Assembly: GCA_026397965.1 (NCBI GenBank)
Contig: JAPLTU010000072.1
Span: 1-64,000, forward strand
Direction of reading: 5' to 3'
DNA from: Verrucomicrobiota bacterium
Lineage (GTDB): Bacteria > Verrucomicrobiota > Verrucomicrobiia > Opitutales > UBA953
Length of the DNA: 64,000 nt
Shown: positions 57,469-64,000 of the stretch, in pieces
Numbering within the stretch: the stretch's first letter is position 1
Layout of the letters: the number at the start of each line of letters is the position of its first letter
Notes under the pieces: model-generated
Told to the model about the DNA's origin: nothing
Seen by the model: only the letters and a program-made list of their open reading frames with translations
Databases searched by the model: none
Made by a program: the position numbers and the translations under genes

Positions 57469-57795
57469 ATGAGCACCGAACTGCCCCCGCCCCCGCCTCC
57501 GCCTCCTGAAGGCGACAACTCAGCTCCTCAAGCCCCTAAGCTTAAGTTGGCAAAACCTGTGGCGGCCATCCCCCCGCCCCCACCTCCACCGGCTCCCGCC
57601 GCTGCTTCGGCCGCAGCCCCCGTAGGTGCAGCCGCACCGGCCGCCTCCGCCCCTCGACCTTCCCCGAGCTTCAATCCAGGCAAAGACCGCGGCATCACCA
57701 AGGCCGAAGGACTCGTCGACGTCGTCACGCTCGTCGCTGCCGGCGTGGCCGTTTTCTTCTTAGCTGCCGAACTCTTCACCAAGTCCAAAGGTTAA
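57469..57795 (+). CDS. Proline-rich protein with C-terminal membrane anchor
   Basis: A 108-residue protein. Residues 1-70 are rich in proline, alanine and serine with uninterrupted proline runs (PPPPPPPP near 6-13 and PPPPPPP near 35-41), then a short basic region (DRGITKAEG) and a single hydrophobic helix (about 83-103) with a short charged end. The layout looks like a tail-anchored protein with a flexible cytoplasmic arm. Function unknown. It lies 8 bases before trxA. Confidence 0.7.
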   Translation: MSTELPPPPPPPPEGDNSAPQAPKLKLAKPVAAIPPPPPPPAPAAASAAAPVGAAAPAASAPRPSPSFNPGKDRGITKAEGLVDVVTLVAAGVAVFFLAAELFTKSKG

Positions 57796-57803
57796 GTTAT
57801 TTC

Positions 57804-58136
57804 ATGGCCTCCGAACTCATTACTAATCTCGACACCACCAACTTCGACTCGACCATCAAAGCGTCGACCGTTCCGGTGCTGGTAGACTTCTGGGCCACCT
57901 GGTGCGGGCCCTGCAAGCAGTTAGGCCCTGTCCTCGATCAGCTTGCCACCGAAATGGGGGCAGCGGTTCAAATCTGCAAAGTGGACGTGGATAGCAACCC
58001 GGCCTTGGCGCAAAACCTTGGCGTCACTTCCATCCCTGCCCTCTTTCTTTTTAAGAACGGCGTCGTGGTAGACAAGATCGTCGGAGCCCGCCCTAAGGGA
58101 GATATCGCCGCCTTCATCAAGAAGCATTCGGCCTAA
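57804..58136 (+). CDS. trxA: Thioredoxin
   Basis: A 110-residue thioredoxin with the active site WCGPCKQ (C34 and C37), VDFWATWCGPC and the cis-proline in VTSIPALFLFKNG. Length and motifs are canonical for TrxA, the general disulfide reductant of the cytosol. A bidirectional terminator lies just downstream. Confidence 0.96.
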   Translation: MASELITNLDTTNFDSTIKASTVPVLVDFWATWCGPCKQLGPVLDQLATEMGAAVQICKVDVDSNPALAQNLGVTSIPALFLFKNGVVVDKIVGARPKGDIAAFIKKHSA

Positions 58137-58218: not shown

Positions 58219-58908
58219 TTACTTTATTTCTAACGGATGGGCCTCAAGTAACTCCTTGGCCGCGTATTGTCCGCGGGCGCCGATGGCCTTCCGGACTTCG
58301 GCCACCTTGGTATCCATCACCGGTTCAGCCGAATTACCCCAGGCCGAACGGACATAGGTGGCGATATTGGCGATTTGGGCATCCTTCAAAGTGGCACCGA
58401 CGTTAGGCATATTGCCGTTATATTTGGCGCCCTTGATTTCGATTTCGCCCACGAGCCCAACGAGGATGGCCTTGATGATACGTTCATCCGCACCAGCCAC
58501 CCAGGGCGAGCCAACCAGTGGAGGGAAAGCGCCAGGAACACCCAGACCGGTAGGCTGGTGACAAGCGGCACAAATAACCAAGAAGAGCTTCTCGCCCTTC
58601 GCGGCATCAGGCTCAAAAATCTTGGGGCCGGTATCCGCCACCACCTTAGGGGCATCGAGGTCGAAAACCCCCGGCGAAAATTGGCCAGAATTGCGGGTCA
58701 AGTAAAGACCCGCCCAGAAGCCGAATCCGCAAAATAGGAAAACGATGAAAATCGGCGTCAGGGAGAAACCCTGGGCCGGCTCATCCTTATCCCGAGAAAG
58801 CTGCGAGTGCAGCTCCACCAAACGTCCGTCGGTAAGCCCGTCGGAGGGATGGCCAGGAGAGCCCGGGCGAGGGCGATTACGATCTGGGGGACGATTACGG
58901 TCGTTCAT
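58219..58908 (-). CDS. Membrane-anchored cytochrome c (operon-terminal)
   Basis: A 229-residue protein with a cytoplasmic Arg/Pro/Asn-rich tail (residues 1-45), one membrane helix (about 50-70) and a periplasmic class I cytochrome c domain. Heme is bound at CAACH (C113, C116, H117), with the distal methionine likely M167 in YNGNMPN. It is the last gene of the ACIII-linked operon, 4 bases after the CcoO-like gene. It resembles the other membrane cytochrome c of the cluster and would pass electrons on. The tail resembles that of the CcoN-like protein. Confidence 0.9.
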   Translation of the reverse strand: MNDRNRPPDRNRPRPGSPGHPSDGLTDGRLVELHSQLSRDKDEPAQGFSLTPIFIVFLFCGFGFWAGLYLTRNSGQFSPGVFDLDAPKVVADTGPKIFEPDAAKGEKLFLVICAACHQPTGLGVPGAFPPLVGSPWVAGADERIIKAILVGLVGEIEIKGAKYNGNMPNVGATLKDAQIANIATYVRSAWGNSAEPVMDTKVAEVRKAIGARGQYAAKELLEAHPLEIK

Positions 58909-58912
58909 GGGT

Positions 58913-59476
58913 TCACTGCTTTAATTTGGCTTCAGGTGAGGCGTAGTCCTGACGAAGGGACTTAAGATAGGCGACGAGGGCGACGGCACGCTCGGTGGGC
59001 CGCGCCTTTTTACCATCAGCGGAAAGGATGTAAAGATAGGCGAAGTCAGGCTTCTGGAGCGAATAACCTGCCGAGTGCGGATCGCGTATCAGGGCATGGA
59101 TATCATCATCAGACTTAGCCCGGGCACCACAGTTAGCCAGATCGGGACCCAGGCGACGTTCGCCGAGCAAGATTTGGGACTGCAGCACGTAATCGCGGGC
59201 CACGGAGGGACGAGAGCCCCAACCGCGGGCGATATCGCTGCCTTGACCCGCTGGACGCACTTGCTGCGTATGACAAGCAACGCAGCCGAGCTCACGGTAG
59301 ACCGCCCGACCTTGGATTGCCAAGCCGGGCTCACGGGCAGGAAACAAAGGACCCCCTTCTTCGGCAGGCGCACGGGAGAGTGAACCGAGTTGAATCTGGC
59401 TACTCAGCAATAAGCCGCCGAAGGGCAAAGCGATCGTGAAAAACAGCCCGGCGAAGAGAAAGTTAAGGTTCTTCAT
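58913..59476 (-). CDS. CcoO-like membrane cytochrome c, atypical heme ligand
   Basis: A 187-residue protein with one N-terminal membrane helix and a monoheme domain of the cbb3 oxidase subunit II (CcoO/FixO) type. Heme attachment is C65-x-x-C68-H69 in RELGCVACHTQQVRP, followed by the RGWG and GPDLANCGAR blocks typical of CcoO. In CcoO a methionine in an SxMP motif is the distal ligand; here the corresponding place reads GYSLQKPDFAYLY and there is no methionine after the initiator. The heme may have histidine or no second ligand. It follows the CcoN-like gene by 12 bases. Confidence 0.88.
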   Translation of the reverse strand: MKNLNFLFAGLFFTIALPFGGLLLSSQIQLGSLSRAPAEEGGPLFPAREPGLAIQGRAVYRELGCVACHTQQVRPAGQGSDIARGWGSRPSVARDYVLQSQILLGERRLGPDLANCGARAKSDDDIHALIRDPHSAGYSLQKPDFAYLYILSADGKKARPTERAVALVAYLKSLRQDYASPEAKLKQ

Positions 59477-59488
59477 GGCGGTGGTGAA

Positions 59489-60922
59489 TTAGTCAGATTG
59501 GGCTTCCGAGGCTGTCGGAGCCGATGAGGAGAAAATCATGCTGAAAGCGTTGAGGGCAAAAGCCAAATGGCCGACCAAGAAAAGGATTGCGAAAATGCTT
59601 CCCGCTAAAGCCAGGGAAGATGATCCGACCTGCGCCATCTTGACCGCCGGATTCAGAAGTTGGTGCCCAGCCTGGTAGCCGTGAACAAGTGAAACGGCCA
59701 CGCTGCCGATCACCGCCAGTGCCGTCGTCCAGAAATGAAGATGAATCAACTTGGCAGATGGCCAGAGGGCACCCGTAAGGCGCGGCAGAATAAAGTAGGC
59801 AGCCCCAAAAATGACCATCGTTAAGAAAGCGTAGGTCAGCATCTGCTCTTGGCCTTGGGCGAATTCGGTAAAACGAACCGCGGCATTAAAGCCCCGGGTC
59901 GAAAAAACCGTGTTGAGCAGACCCGCCAAAGTGAAACTGACGGCCCCGAAAGCCACGAAACGTAGCGTCGTACTATTCCACGCCTGCGCCCACCCCCCCC
60001 GCTGGAAAAGCGTGCCATGGAAATTAATCGCGGTGATGATGATCGGGATAATCATCATGATTGAGGCGACGACGCCAACGGACTGAACCCAAACCGGAAT
60101 AGGACTGCCTAATAACGCCGAAGGAGCGGTCGCGCCGGCAAAAAGGAAGTAAGTCCAGAAAGCTACGGTCGCGAGGTAGTAGCCGTGGAGCGGACGTCCG
60201 AGCACCTTAGGAATGAAATAGTAGACCGCCGCCAATCCGGAGGCACCCAACCAAAGCAGCATCAGGTTCTGGATGAACCAGCTATGCACCAAGGCCTGCA
60301 CGGGGCCAGAAGCGGGACACCAGAGAACTAAAAGCTGGGTAAGCGCATAAACAATCGGGAAGGTAAAGGCGGCGCCGACCACGAACCATTGCGAGGCAAA
60401 AGAATGTCCAGTCGGCCGACGGGCGAAGGCCACGATTGGCCAGAAGCCGACGAGTAAGAAAGCCACCATCAGAACGGGGCCGACTTCCCGCGGCATTTCC
60501 AGTAAGCTGAAGCCGTTCATGTTTCCGGTGAAAATCTGCAAGACACCGTAACCCAAAGCGGCGTTCCAGATGAAACCGCCGAGGGTGGCAAGCCAACCAC
60601 TACGCAATTCAAAGCGTCCTAATTGCGAGAGCAGCCAAAGATTGACCGCGAAGAGCGCATTGCAGGCCCAACCATAAATAAAGGCGTTCTTTTGGGCGGC
60701 GACGACATGCCCGAAAGTCAGGCATTCCGAATTCAGGAAAGAGGGAAGGTGCAGTTTGAGCGAGGCGACCAAACCGAGCACGGAAGCCAGCAACAACCAA
60801 AGGATGGCGGAGCCAAAACAGAAAAGAAACGGACCGCGAAGCTGGGCTTCACCGCGGGGCGCACGCGATGGGTTTCCGGGTGAACGGCCGGGCGGTCGGC
60901 GGTAGTTAGGGTCCTGACTCAT
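59489..60922 (-). CDS. CcoN-like subunit without heme/copper ligands
   Basis: A 477-residue polytopic protein of the cbb3 oxidase subunit I (CcoN) family, by length, helix pattern and motifs. Aligned with known CcoN motifs, the low-spin heme b ligand is Q77 (family H in PLHTxAVIFAFGG; here AAQKNAFIYGWACNALFA), the first CuB ligand is Q218 (family WYGHN; here WFIQN), the CuB pair HH is absent (the stretch AGATAPSALLGSP has no His), and the two C-terminal ligands of hemes b3 and b are Q358 and Q360 (family DxTIAHVH; here QGQEQ). It should bind no heme and no copper. The fold blocks YYFIPK, SPIPVW and IMMIIP remain. Probably a structural or adaptor subunit. Confidence 0.88.
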   Translation of the reverse strand: MSQDPNYRRPPGRSPGNPSRAPRGEAQLRGPFLFCFGSAILWLLLASVLGLVASLKLHLPSFLNSECLTFGHVVAAQKNAFIYGWACNALFAVNLWLLSQLGRFELRSGWLATLGGFIWNAALGYGVLQIFTGNMNGFSLLEMPREVGPVLMVAFLLVGFWPIVAFARRPTGHSFASQWFVVGAAFTFPIVYALTQLLVLWCPASGPVQALVHSWFIQNLMLLWLGASGLAAVYYFIPKVLGRPLHGYYLATVAFWTYFLFAGATAPSALLGSPIPVWVQSVGVVASIMMIIPIIITAINFHGTLFQRGGWAQAWNSTTLRFVAFGAVSFTLAGLLNTVFSTRGFNAAVRFTEFAQGQEQMLTYAFLTMVIFGAAYFILPRLTGALWPSAKLIHLHFWTTALAVIGSVAVSLVHGYQAGHQLLNPAVKMAQVGSSSLALAGSIFAILFLVGHLAFALNAFSMIFSSSAPTASEAQSD

Positions 60923-60943: not shown

Positions 60944-61690
60944 TTATTTGAGGCCGAGTTCAGCGGTGGTCCACGGCGCGGTCCGGGCCGCATTGGCGGC
61001 ACGAACAGCTTTAACCTGTTCGACGGAAACCGGATTACCTTTATTGCCGAAACTTTGGCGAACATAGGTAAGGACGTCGGAGATATCCTGGTCCGTGACT
61101 CCAACTACCGGAGGCATCATGCTATTATAGGTCATACCACCCACCGTGATCGGACCCATGAGCCCGTTCGTGATGAACTTGATCGGCAGTTCAGGATTAC
61201 CGACGACGATGGGCGTCTCAGCGATCGAGGGAAAGACGGGGGGCAGACCTTTGCCCGTAGGCTGGTGGCAAGCGATACAAGTGCGGGCGTAGACGGCTGC
61301 GCCCCGCTTCATCACTTCGTCATCCGCTTTCACGAAGGCTATGGCTGGAGCGGCCCCGGCGACAACAGCTACGATGGGGGGCGCAAATTTTCCGAGGACT
61401 TTATTGTCCGCCGCAATCAACGCCATGGCATCTTGGATTGGGATACGAACGGTGCCGTCGGGGTTACGTGCCGGAGTGGTAAGAAGCGCCTGGGCCTTGG
61501 ATTCGGCATCCGCGCGCAATGCTTTTTGGGCGACGCGACGTTCCGTGTCCGCCCCACCCTGTGGGCGGTTGGCGACGTAAACGTAAGCGATGACCAAGAA
61601 AGCCAGACCGGCTAAAATGACGGTTCCGAGCCAAGCATTAATCTGCCCAGGAATCAGCGGGCGGCTTCCAGAAGGAGAATGATCACTCAT
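60944..61690 (-). CDS. Membrane-anchored cytochrome c of the ACIII-linked operon
   Basis: A 248-residue protein with one N-terminal membrane helix (about 20-40), a linker with RIPIQDAMALIA-like sequence, and a class I cytochrome c domain. Heme binds at C138-x-x-C141-H142 (TCIACHQPTGKG), and M191 or M192 in YNSMMPP is the probable distal ligand. It resembles the operon-terminal cytochrome c and may be an electron carrier between ACIII and a terminal oxidase. The ATG at 61690 overlaps the ActF stop by 8 bases; a longer frame exists but lacks support. Confidence 0.9.
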   Translation of the reverse strand: MSDHSPSGSRPLIPGQINAWLGTVILAGLAFLVIAYVYVANRPQGGADTERRVAQKALRADAESKAQALLTTPARNPDGTVRIPIQDAMALIAADNKVLGKFAPPIVAVVAGAAPAIAFVKADDEVMKRGAAVYARTCIACHQPTGKGLPPVFPSIAETPIVVGNPELPIKFITNGLMGPITVGGMTYNSMMPPVVGVTDQDISDVLTYVRQSFGNKGNPVSVEQVKAVRAANAARTAPWTTAELGLK

Positions 61691-62966
61691 GATAATTGAT
61701 GGACTCGAGGATACGGGGGTCGTGAACAGGAATAGTCTCGTGTCGTGTGGCACCGCGCAAGAAGACGGCGATGACGATACCGCCGAAACCAAGCAGTGCG
61801 GCCAAATCAAGGAAAAGATGAGGGGTAAGGAAAGGCGCCACGATGAAGCCCTCTGGGCCGGACTTATCCGCAATCTGACGCGGGACGGCATTGAACCAAA
61901 GGTCGACGAGCCCCCCGAAGAAAATCAGCCAAGCCACCGACAAGAGACGACCGGCGATGATTTTGGTACGGTAAAAAAGCAGGATAAGAAAAGGTAGCAG
62001 AAAGAACCCGAAGATGAGGTACATCGAGACACTCCACCATTGGTTTTTGAGTCCGGTAATGGAATCAAACTCGCGGATATTATACCAATACGTCTCTTCC
62101 GGGATGTTCGCCGTATAGATCAGGAAATATTGGGAGAAACTGATGTAAGCCCAGAAGACCGTGAAAGCCAGCATCAGACAGCCCAAGACGTGGCGATGGG
62201 CTTGGTTGAAAATACCGTCGAGCCAACCGCCATGCGAAAGCCGATAAGTGATAATCACCGTGAACGCCAAAGCGAGGCGGATGGAAAGGGAGAAGAACCA
62301 CACGCCATACATCGTGGAAAACCAGTGGTAGGAAAGCGCCATCAGGCAATCGAACGCCAACATCGTGAGGGTGACTGCGCCGAGAGGAATACCGACGGCA
62401 GAAACCGCGTGCAGGCGATGGGTGTGCCCCGCCGTCCGATCGGTATCCTGGGCGAAGGACCATTTACGCAGAGCCCAGACTAAGCCGCCCAAAATAATCA
62501 CGTAGCCGAAAATGCGGCCGAGGAAGAAACTCTCATTCAGGAACCAGCTCTTAGCCTGGAGAATCGGATCATGCCCGACTTCATGGCCGTTTGGCAGAAG
62601 GTGCGAGGCATCGGTCCAATCCCAAAGCAAGTGACGGAATTTAGGAAGGAGCGCCATCGGTACAACGCTCAGCAACAGCACCAAAGGCAAAGCGGGTAAG
62701 ACTAATTCCCACGAGCGACGAATGACGGGTGCCCAACCGGCGTCGAAGACCCGGGTAATCATCGTGAGCATCAGCAAACCGATGAGCACCGAGACCCAGA
62801 AAAGGCCTCCGACCAAAACGGAAAGAAGCGGACGGTAGTTGTGTTCCAGCATTCCCTGGAAGGCAAAGAACCAACACACCCCGAGACCCATGAGGCCCAG
62901 CACCAGGAATTTCTTCCAGTGAGCCGTGATTGGATGGGCGGAGGGCGATGAAGAAGTATCTCTCAT
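61683..62966 (-). CDS. actF: Alternative complex III subunit ActF (quinol:cytochrome c oxidoreductase, membrane subunit)
   Basis: A 427-residue membrane protein with about ten helices. ActF is homologous to ActC/NrfD-type quinol-binding subunits, and the family segments KFLVLGLMGLGVCWFFAFQG, NESFFLGRIFGYVI, STMYGVWFFSLS and ISFSQYFLIYTANIPEETYWY identify it. ACIII replaces bc1 and hands quinol electrons to cytochrome c or directly to oxidases. It follows actE by 7 bases and overlaps the next cytochrome c gene by 8. Confidence 0.92.
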   Translation of the reverse strand: MRDTSSSPSAHPITAHWKKFLVLGLMGLGVCWFFAFQGMLEHNYRPLLSVLVGGLFWVSVLIGLLMLTMITRVFDAGWAPVIRRSWELVLPALPLVLLLSVVPMALLPKFRHLLWDWTDASHLLPNGHEVGHDPILQAKSWFLNESFFLGRIFGYVIILGGLVWALRKWSFAQDTDRTAGHTHRLHAVSAVGIPLGAVTLTMLAFDCLMALSYHWFSTMYGVWFFSLSIRLALAFTVIITYRLSHGGWLDGIFNQAHRHVLGCLMLAFTVFWAYISFSQYFLIYTANIPEETYWYNIREFDSITGLKNQWWSVSMYLIFGFFLLPFLILLFYRTKIIAGRLLSVAWLIFFGGLVDLWFNAVPRQIADKSGPEGFIVAPFLTPHLFLDLAALLGFGGIVIAVFLRGATRHETIPVHDPRILESINYHE

Positions 62967-62973
62967 ATTCGGA

Positions 62974-63690
62974 TTACTTAAGGTTAGCCTTCAATGAGGC
63001 TGGGACGAGTTCAGCGGGGCAAGCCTGTGAAAGCTGCAAGGCGCGGACATAGGCAACGACCGCCCAGCGTTCTTCAGGCGAAAGCTTGTCGCCGTAGCCC
63101 TGCATGGTGTTCTTGCCGTTCGTGATAACGTCGAAGATCTGTCCGTGCGGGTAAGCTCGAAAAATCGGGGTCTGTAAGTTCGCAATCGTGACGATGGCAA
63201 CATCGCCTTCGACGGCGGAACGGACCTTCATGATGCCATTGCCGTCGGCCGCCTGACCATGGCAGACCGCACAATAGATTTGGAACTTCGCTTGGCCGAG
63301 AGCCAACGTCTTACCGTCGATGGTGAAGGGCTGGAGTTCGCCGCCCTTGAGCACCGTAAGGGATTTGACCGGAAACTCCGCGAGGAAATTACCCTTGCCA
63401 TCCTTAGCCGTCACGAAAGAAGGATTTAAAGATTCGGCCCGACGGTAGTCAGCGGCGAAAACCTTTTCTGGGTGCAGGGCGTCGCCCCGGGCGACCGTCC
63501 CGGCGACCGGCGGGCGCGCATCGCGGCCATCGGCAAAGAACACGTTCTCCCCCTGGGCTTTGTACTTAGATTGGTAATCCATGTCATCGAAGACATAGAC
63601 GGGAGTATCCTTGGAGGTCTTACCCTGAAATCCTAAGAAACTTATGAGGGCCAGGACGGCGACGGCAAGAAAGGTGAGGTAACGGCTCAT
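62974..63690 (-). CDS. actE: Alternative complex III subunit ActE (monoheme cytochrome c)
   Basis: A 238-residue exported cytochrome c with an N-terminal signal or anchor (TFLAVAVLALISFLGFQG). The DDMDYQSKYKAQGENVFFADG region is a family mark of ActE, and the heme site is CAVCHGQAADGNG with a methionine in NTMQGYGDKLSPEERW. It accepts electrons from ActA or quinol-linked cofactors in ACIII. It lies 8 bases after actD and 7 before actF. Confidence 0.92.
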   Translation of the reverse strand: MSRYLTFLAVAVLALISFLGFQGKTSKDTPVYVFDDMDYQSKYKAQGENVFFADGRDARPPVAGTVARGDALHPEKVFAADYRRAESLNPSFVTAKDGKGNFLAEFPVKSLTVLKGGELQPFTIDGKTLALGQAKFQIYCAVCHGQAADGNGIMKVRSAVEGDVAIVTIANLQTPIFRAYPHGQIFDVITNGKNTMQGYGDKLSPEERWAVVAYVRALQLSQACPAELVPASLKANLK

Positions 63691-63698
63691 GAGACGAA

Positions 63699-64000
63699 TT
63701 AGTCGCGGATGACGGTGATTTCCTGGCCGCCCAGCGACAGCAGGAAGTTACGGGATTCATCGAGGTGGAAGTTCGTATCGCGCGCTTCGAGGACGATCAT
63801 GAAAGTATCGTCCGAGACGCGACTGAACTGCGGCAGGTCAAACAACGGGTGGTGGTGGTGAGGCAGGCGATTAAAAATGAACTGCCCGAAGAACGTGCCG
63901 AACGCCGCAAAAAGAATCGTGCACTCATACAAGATCGGGAATGGAAAAATAACGCTCCAGTAAGGCTTACCGCCGACGATCAACGGGTAGTCGTAAGAGT
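63699..64000 (-). CDS. actD: Alternative complex III subunit ActD, 5' end outside window
   Basis: Only the C-terminal 99 residues are inside the window; the frame is open to the right edge. ActD is a small membrane protein with two helices and no cofactor (DUF3341). VGGKPYWSVIFPFPILYECTILFAAFGTFFGQF and PHHHHPLFDLPQF, then SDDTFMIVLEARD, are typical. Upstream of it, actA, actB and actC are expected outside the window. It ends 8 bases before actE. Confidence 0.88.
   Translation of the reverse strand, partial: SYDYPLIVGGKPYWSVIFPFPILYECTILFAAFGTFFGQFIFNRLPHHHHPLFDLPQFSRVSDDTFMIVLEARDTNFHLDESRNFLLSLGGQEITVIRD

Follow-up and report, generated by a model that had tools for sequence, protein, structure and literature searches.

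A CcoN homolog without heme and copper ligands encoded in the alternative complex III operon of Verrucomicrobiota

Introduction

Enzyme homologs that lost their catalytic metal and became structural parts of respiratory complexes include ActB1 of alternative complex III (ACIII), which is homologous to molybdoenzymes but has no molybdenum, and NuoD of complex I, a hydrogenase homolog without NiFe. The CcoN-like protein described here, hereafter N, would resemble both in this respect if its proposed role is correct; unlike them, it belongs to another enzyme class, and its loss is recurrent and recent enough for sister genera to remain intact. ACIII and oxidases form supercomplexes in Rhodothermus and Flavobacterium, in which electrons pass directly from the hemes of ACIII to the oxidase (PMC5928083). 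In the review PMC8498564, which cites Refojo 2010, a C-type oxidase linked to ACIII in Opitutaceae and verrucomicrobial methanotrophs is described as a working cbb3 oxidase; it has the same operon and belongs to the same gene family as N. The high O2 affinity of Methylacidiphilum has likewise been linked to a cbb3 cluster adjacent to ACIII (PMC6688271).

The window analysed here is a stretch of 64,000 nucleotides from a genome of the order Opitutales. A preliminary description of its letters alone had noted a cbb3-like subunit I without its heme and copper ligands; it overlooked the context, namely the ACIII operon, the intact ligands of most relatives and the recurrence of the loss. In the open-licence literature that we searched, no ACIII-linked CcoN is described as having lost its ligands. 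We consider N to be a pseudo-oxidase that now probably serves as a structural subunit of ACIII, anchoring c-type cytochromes from which electrons would exit to a separate oxidase, and we give this reading a probability of roughly 65%.

Gene order and partner cytochromes

The gene order is actABCDEF, a cytochrome c gene, N, O and P, with ActA as a pentaheme and ActC as an NrfD-like protein. The act genes are directly upstream of N, and O and P are downstream. The features within the window are as follows.

63699..63998, minus strand: ActD of ACIII, cut off by the window edge; upstream on the same contig lie ActC, ActB and ActA
62974..63690, minus strand: ActE, the monoheme cytochrome c of ACIII
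61683..62966, minus strand: ActF of ACIII, assigned by position and homology, with no Pfam match
60944..61690, minus strand: small one-helix membrane protein carrying a C-terminal P-like cytochrome c domain, 248 aa when translated from 61690, its likely start (61891 in the longest ORF)
59489..60922, minus strand: N, CcoN-like subunit without heme and copper ligands, 477 aa, ATG start, ORF confirmed
58913..59476, minus strand: O, FixO/CcoO-like monoheme cytochrome c, CxxCH present, axial Met lost
58219..58908, minus strand: P, CcoP-like monoheme cytochrome c, CxxCH and Met-Pro motif present

The actABCDEF–N–O–P operon is conserved across Verrucomicrobiota and also occurs in some Planctomycetota. 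Just downstream of it, on the opposite strand, a short protein rich in proline, whose tail is predicted to be hydrophobic (57469-57795), directly precedes a thioredoxin-like gene (57804-58136).

The fused cytochrome c domain at 60944-61690 shares 38% identity with P over 143 residues (5e-24), and no heme domain is present in the corresponding gene of two sister genera with intact N (L139 and L140). The small membrane protein between ActF and N has thus acquired its cytochrome c domain in the window genus. The CxxCH of O was kept in 79 of 79 ligand-less copies, and the heme motif of P in nearly all of them. The axial Met of O was found in all 102 intact copies versus 40 of 80 ligand-less ones, and the window O reads SLQKPDFAYLY where intact relatives have GSxMPPF. 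With half of the ligand-less O proteins lacking this Met, part of the electron wire may be vestigial too. A second CxxCH was found in seven O proteins of families f2 and f19, all beside a ligand-less N, and in none of the 102 intact copies; the seven are L042, L167, L168, L170, L198, L046 and L181. The added hemes fit a module that now relays rather than consumes electrons; they represent only about two events and alone prove nothing.

Fold of the N subunit

The product of N is a member of the COX1 family (Pfam COX1, 2.6e-35), and its closest HMM match is ccoN TIGR00780 (1e-30), at a score far under the cut-off of that model. The AlphaFold model (pLDDT 88, pTM 0.90) has CcoN (3mk7) as its top structural match (VIA Z 50.0, 1.8 Å, 441 residues), ahead of nitric oxide reductase (Z 41-44) and A-type structures (Z 34-38). 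The YYFIPK, SPIPVW and IMMIIP motifs are present, so the earlier statement that the cbb3 subunit I frame is intact was borne out. N and cbb3 CcoN share the fold, the length, the N-O-P gene order and the FixO/CcoP-like partner cytochromes; in contrast, identity to 3mk7 is only ~21%, and N has neither the six ligands nor the cross-link Tyr. The glutamate of the FEGP motif is replaced by Leu at the aligned position in N; it is also not Glu in the intact ACIII-linked relatives, and its absence therefore sets the whole group apart from cbb3 CcoN. NorB (3o0r, 4xyd) shares the superfamily fold but is less similar to N than CcoN is. N has none of the His ligands common to the superfamily, so that the conserved NorB ligands of heme b, heme b3 and FeB are not His in N. 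Judged from the alignment and the model, N has retained the CcoN fold and not the metal sites.

Preservation of the full helical fold could also mean that N has gained a non-redox activity of its own, such as the conduction of protons or ions, or quinol binding at a site that feeds ACIII. A precedent exists in ACIII itself, in which the cofactor-free, NrfD-like ActC and ActF have been proposed to move protons (PMC5928083). Against this, no conserved new polar motif was seen in N, and the residues that replaced the ligands vary by lineage; we regard such an activity as unlikely.

Ligand positions

Ligands were mapped by aligning N with P. stutzeri CcoN (3mk7), in which H60, H347 and H349 are the heme ligands. 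The CuB ligands are His207, His257 and His258 (numbering from PMC3578206). The aligned positions in N are encoded as follows.

60692..60694, minus strand: Q77, codon CAA, at heme b ligand His60
60269..60271, minus strand: Q218, codon CAG, at CuB ligand His207
60137..60139, minus strand: A262, at cross-link Tyr251
60116..60121, minus strand: S268-A269, at CuB ligands His257-His258
59849..59851, minus strand: Q358, codon CAA, at heme b3 ligand His347
59843..59845, minus strand: Q360, codon CAG, at heme b ligand His349

The four glutamines first reported were numbered exactly, and the CuB pair given there as missing reads S268-A269. The cross-link position holds Tyr in 106 of 106 intact relatives and in one of 82 ligand-less ones. 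All 39 aligned sequences of the window genus have lost the ligands at 77, 218, 268, 269 and 358 (77 being unreadable in one truncated copy), and five of them have His at 360. The replacements within the genus are Q, A or E at 77, Q, S, A or R at 218, Q, L or I at 358 and Q, H, V or L at 360. A histidine shifted elsewhere in the same helices would have told against a true loss. Comparison within the genus gave no conserved alternative in helices 2 and 10, and among the 11 His of the window N the sole genus-conserved one near a lost ligand is H213 (12 of 13 members), five residues ahead of Q218. The alignment thus shows that the active site has been lost, and N is probably a protein without heme b and copper.

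Residual binding of heme or metal through Gln, Glu or His213, with an altered redox function, could draw on the conservation and position of H213 and on the single His kept in some copies. Nevertheless, the ligand positions are filled by freely varying residues (Q, A, E, S, R, L, I, F, V), no conserved pair of opposing axial residues exists, and constraint on the second-sphere residues Y330, S334 and G337 loosens along with that on the ligands, making this quite improbable.

The preliminary description had also read the shared Gln as a sign of special function, a point that did not survive comparison. Gln is the commonest state at the lost ligands in the window genus, yet it is not conserved even there. 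Across ~16 loss lineages, replacement of His by Gln showed no clear excess over one-step mutation, for which a 2-in-8 chance was taken as the null expectation (P 0.06 to 0.99 per position, with position 360 borderline at 0.06). A conserved functional Gln signature was thus ruled out. Separately, an Opitutaceae-like clade independently has Gln at the same four positions (QQGRHQQ), which is notable and within the one-step expectation; the same QQGRHQQ occurs in a ligand-less N (L147) from a complete genome with six COX1 genes (G160).

Selection on the ligand-less gene

Between the window N and its three nearest relatives, dN/dS is 0.089-0.097. Other pairs of the window genus give 0.07-0.20, mostly 0.07-0.15, with 0.20 in one sub-branch; for comparison, intact pairs give 0.053-0.079 and ActF gives 0.013-0.027. 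Among the 128 columns invariant in intact copies, 54 are kept in at least 80% of the ligand-less representatives, and the ligands, the Tyr262 position and neighbouring residues relax. These values show purifying selection on the ligand-less N and agree with the initial view that the gene is not a degraded one. Some features would suit a gene in decay that persists through its operon: after ligand loss N evolves faster than the ACIII subunits, and one sub-branch reaches the upper end of the dN/dS range. Decay is nonetheless very improbable, given the low dN/dS of most genus pairs, the retained invariant columns, reading frames that are open in nearly all genomes, and the retention of N in at least a dozen separate lineages.

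Distribution and recurrent loss

Among the 188 N homologs aligned, the six His and the Tyr are all intact in 106; the remaining 82 lack the full set, and of these 47 keep none of the six His and 26 keep one. Intact N is present in the two sister genera mentioned above, which belong to the window's own family, and in Cerasicoccus (L065, L067, L081). The survey genomes are in part drafts. The profile scan of their contigs used a 7-row alignment that favours intact copies, and ligand-less copies were sampled by a separate genome search. Within 227 Opitutales genomes, N was found in 161 and ActD in 161, with 158 shared (one of these, G241, had only a score typical of canonical cbb3). N therefore follows ACIII almost one-to-one, and does so whatever its ligand state, in keeping with its proposed role as a subunit of ACIII.

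Some copies fall beside these classes. One N (L096:4572-6146) is an intermediate, in which the CuB pair and the cross-link Tyr are lost (AR and S) and all heme His and the first CuB His are kept. L209 (G160) and L210 (G071) are stand-alone C-like COX1 with all ligands, each next to a diheme cytochrome; the stretch read at these loci contains no ACIII genes. Four loci of family f44 genomes (L212-L215) encode a C-like COX1 that is intact, and three of these loci have a ~610-aa protein with seven CxxCH near it.

On a tree of ActC, ActD, ActE and ActF from 93 loci, the intact and ligand-less states need 14 changes, 12 of which are forced by well-supported branches. Counted as losses, because regain of six ligands is implausible, these amount to ligand loss at least 12 times within Opitutales; the loss was placed on the stem of the window genus, because L139 and L140, from other genera of its family, are intact. 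This count covers Opitutales; outside the order, loss was found in five more families.

Forcing the ligand-less loci into a single clade on the ACIII genes costs 3458 log-likelihood units (p-AU 4e-78). Nine loss groups were also placed singly among intact rows on the N tree. The window genus placed alone joins two intact rows, its family relatives, at a support of 100, its nearest intact row being L140, and f11-g55, f24-g28, L141, L096, L161 and the Opitutaceae-like group fall in well-supported sets headed by their own kin. Placement on this tree is only loose for very long groups, for example f11-g60. A single dead N-O-P cassette that arose once and spread by gene transfer would fit the full N tree, on which ligand-less sequences cluster (98% SH-aLRT), but that cluster is made of long branches, most groups placed alone join their own kin, the ligand patterns vary by lineage and a single clade is rejected by the ACIII genes that share the operon, making a single origin extremely improbable.

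Other oxidases and Methylacidiphilum

The window genome has one other COX1, which belongs to a complete caa3 oxidase (COX2 with a cytochrome c domain, COX1, COX3 and CtaG) with its His motifs present; no canonical cbb3 or cytochrome bd was found elsewhere in this genome. Nearly all ligand-less genomes have another COX1, although such counts are statistically weak, since additional oxidases are present in most intact genomes as well; in four ligand-less drafts (G004, G006, G017 and G073) no other COX1 was seen. In three genomes of one genus that are 97-99% complete (G046, G109 and G168), the intact copy is the sole COX1, and G046 has no bd either. Together with the cross-link Tyr, which every intact copy has although the cbb3 glutamate is absent, this suggests that the intact ACIII-linked form is a working oxidase.

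In the genomes assigned to Methylacidiphilum Kam1 and SolV, all heme ligands of N are gone and no more than one His remains, located in the CuB pair. Besides N, Kam1 has two COX1 genes of A-type score, one weaker and one NorB-like. We take the weaker-scoring one for the published ba3, and by elimination among these genes the published 'cbb3' next to ACIII (PMC6688271, PMC8498564) is the ligand-less protein. The N of Kam1 and SolV thus differs from the ACIII-linked oxidase published as a working cbb3 in having lost the heme ligands. An aa3-type COX1 starts 134 bases after P of the dead N-O-P in Kam1, and in G398 an aa3-type oxidase comes immediately after the dead N-O-P; the COX1 positions indicate a similar arrangement in SolV, G311, G406 and G409.

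Proposed role and implications

Under the pseudo-oxidase reading, the ancestor of N would have been the O2-reducing subunit of an ACIII-cbb3-like supercomplex, in which electrons ran from menaquinol through ACIII and cytochromes c to O2. The ligands of heme b, heme b3 and CuB would have been lost once another oxidase took over O2 reduction, caa3 in the case of the window genus, and the same loss would have happened independently in many other lineages. N would have been retained as a structural membrane subunit of ACIII, holding O and P, and in the window genus also the new fused cytochrome c, beside ActE, and electrons would leave ACIII via these c-type hemes to the separate oxidase. Such an electron exit is plausible because of the ACIII-oxidase supercomplexes known in Rhodothermus and Flavobacterium (PMC5928083). 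Of the interpretation offered in the preliminary description, a scaffold or cytochrome-binding subunit stays the best explanation, while the shared Gln is no evidence of a special function.

More broadly, we lean slightly towards the idea that subunit I of heme-copper oxidases can be converted repeatedly, across many lineages, into a cofactor-free integral subunit of ACIII, which would help to deliver protons, or electrons by way of new or retained c-type hemes, to an unrelated oxidase. Such a class of pseudoenzyme in the heme-copper superfamily is undescribed in the literature searched.

Inference of O2 respiration and O2 affinity from genomes routinely relies on heme-copper oxidase genes, and the ACIII-linked branch annotated as cbb3 is a mix of live and dead enzymes. 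The dead form occurs in Methylacidiphilum strains whose high O2 affinity was tied to this cluster (PMC6688271). The handover from ACIII to the oxidase is directly testable in cultured strains, and the many independent losses, together with the intact sister genera, constitute a natural experiment in how a respiratory enzyme may become a structural subunit of its neighbour.
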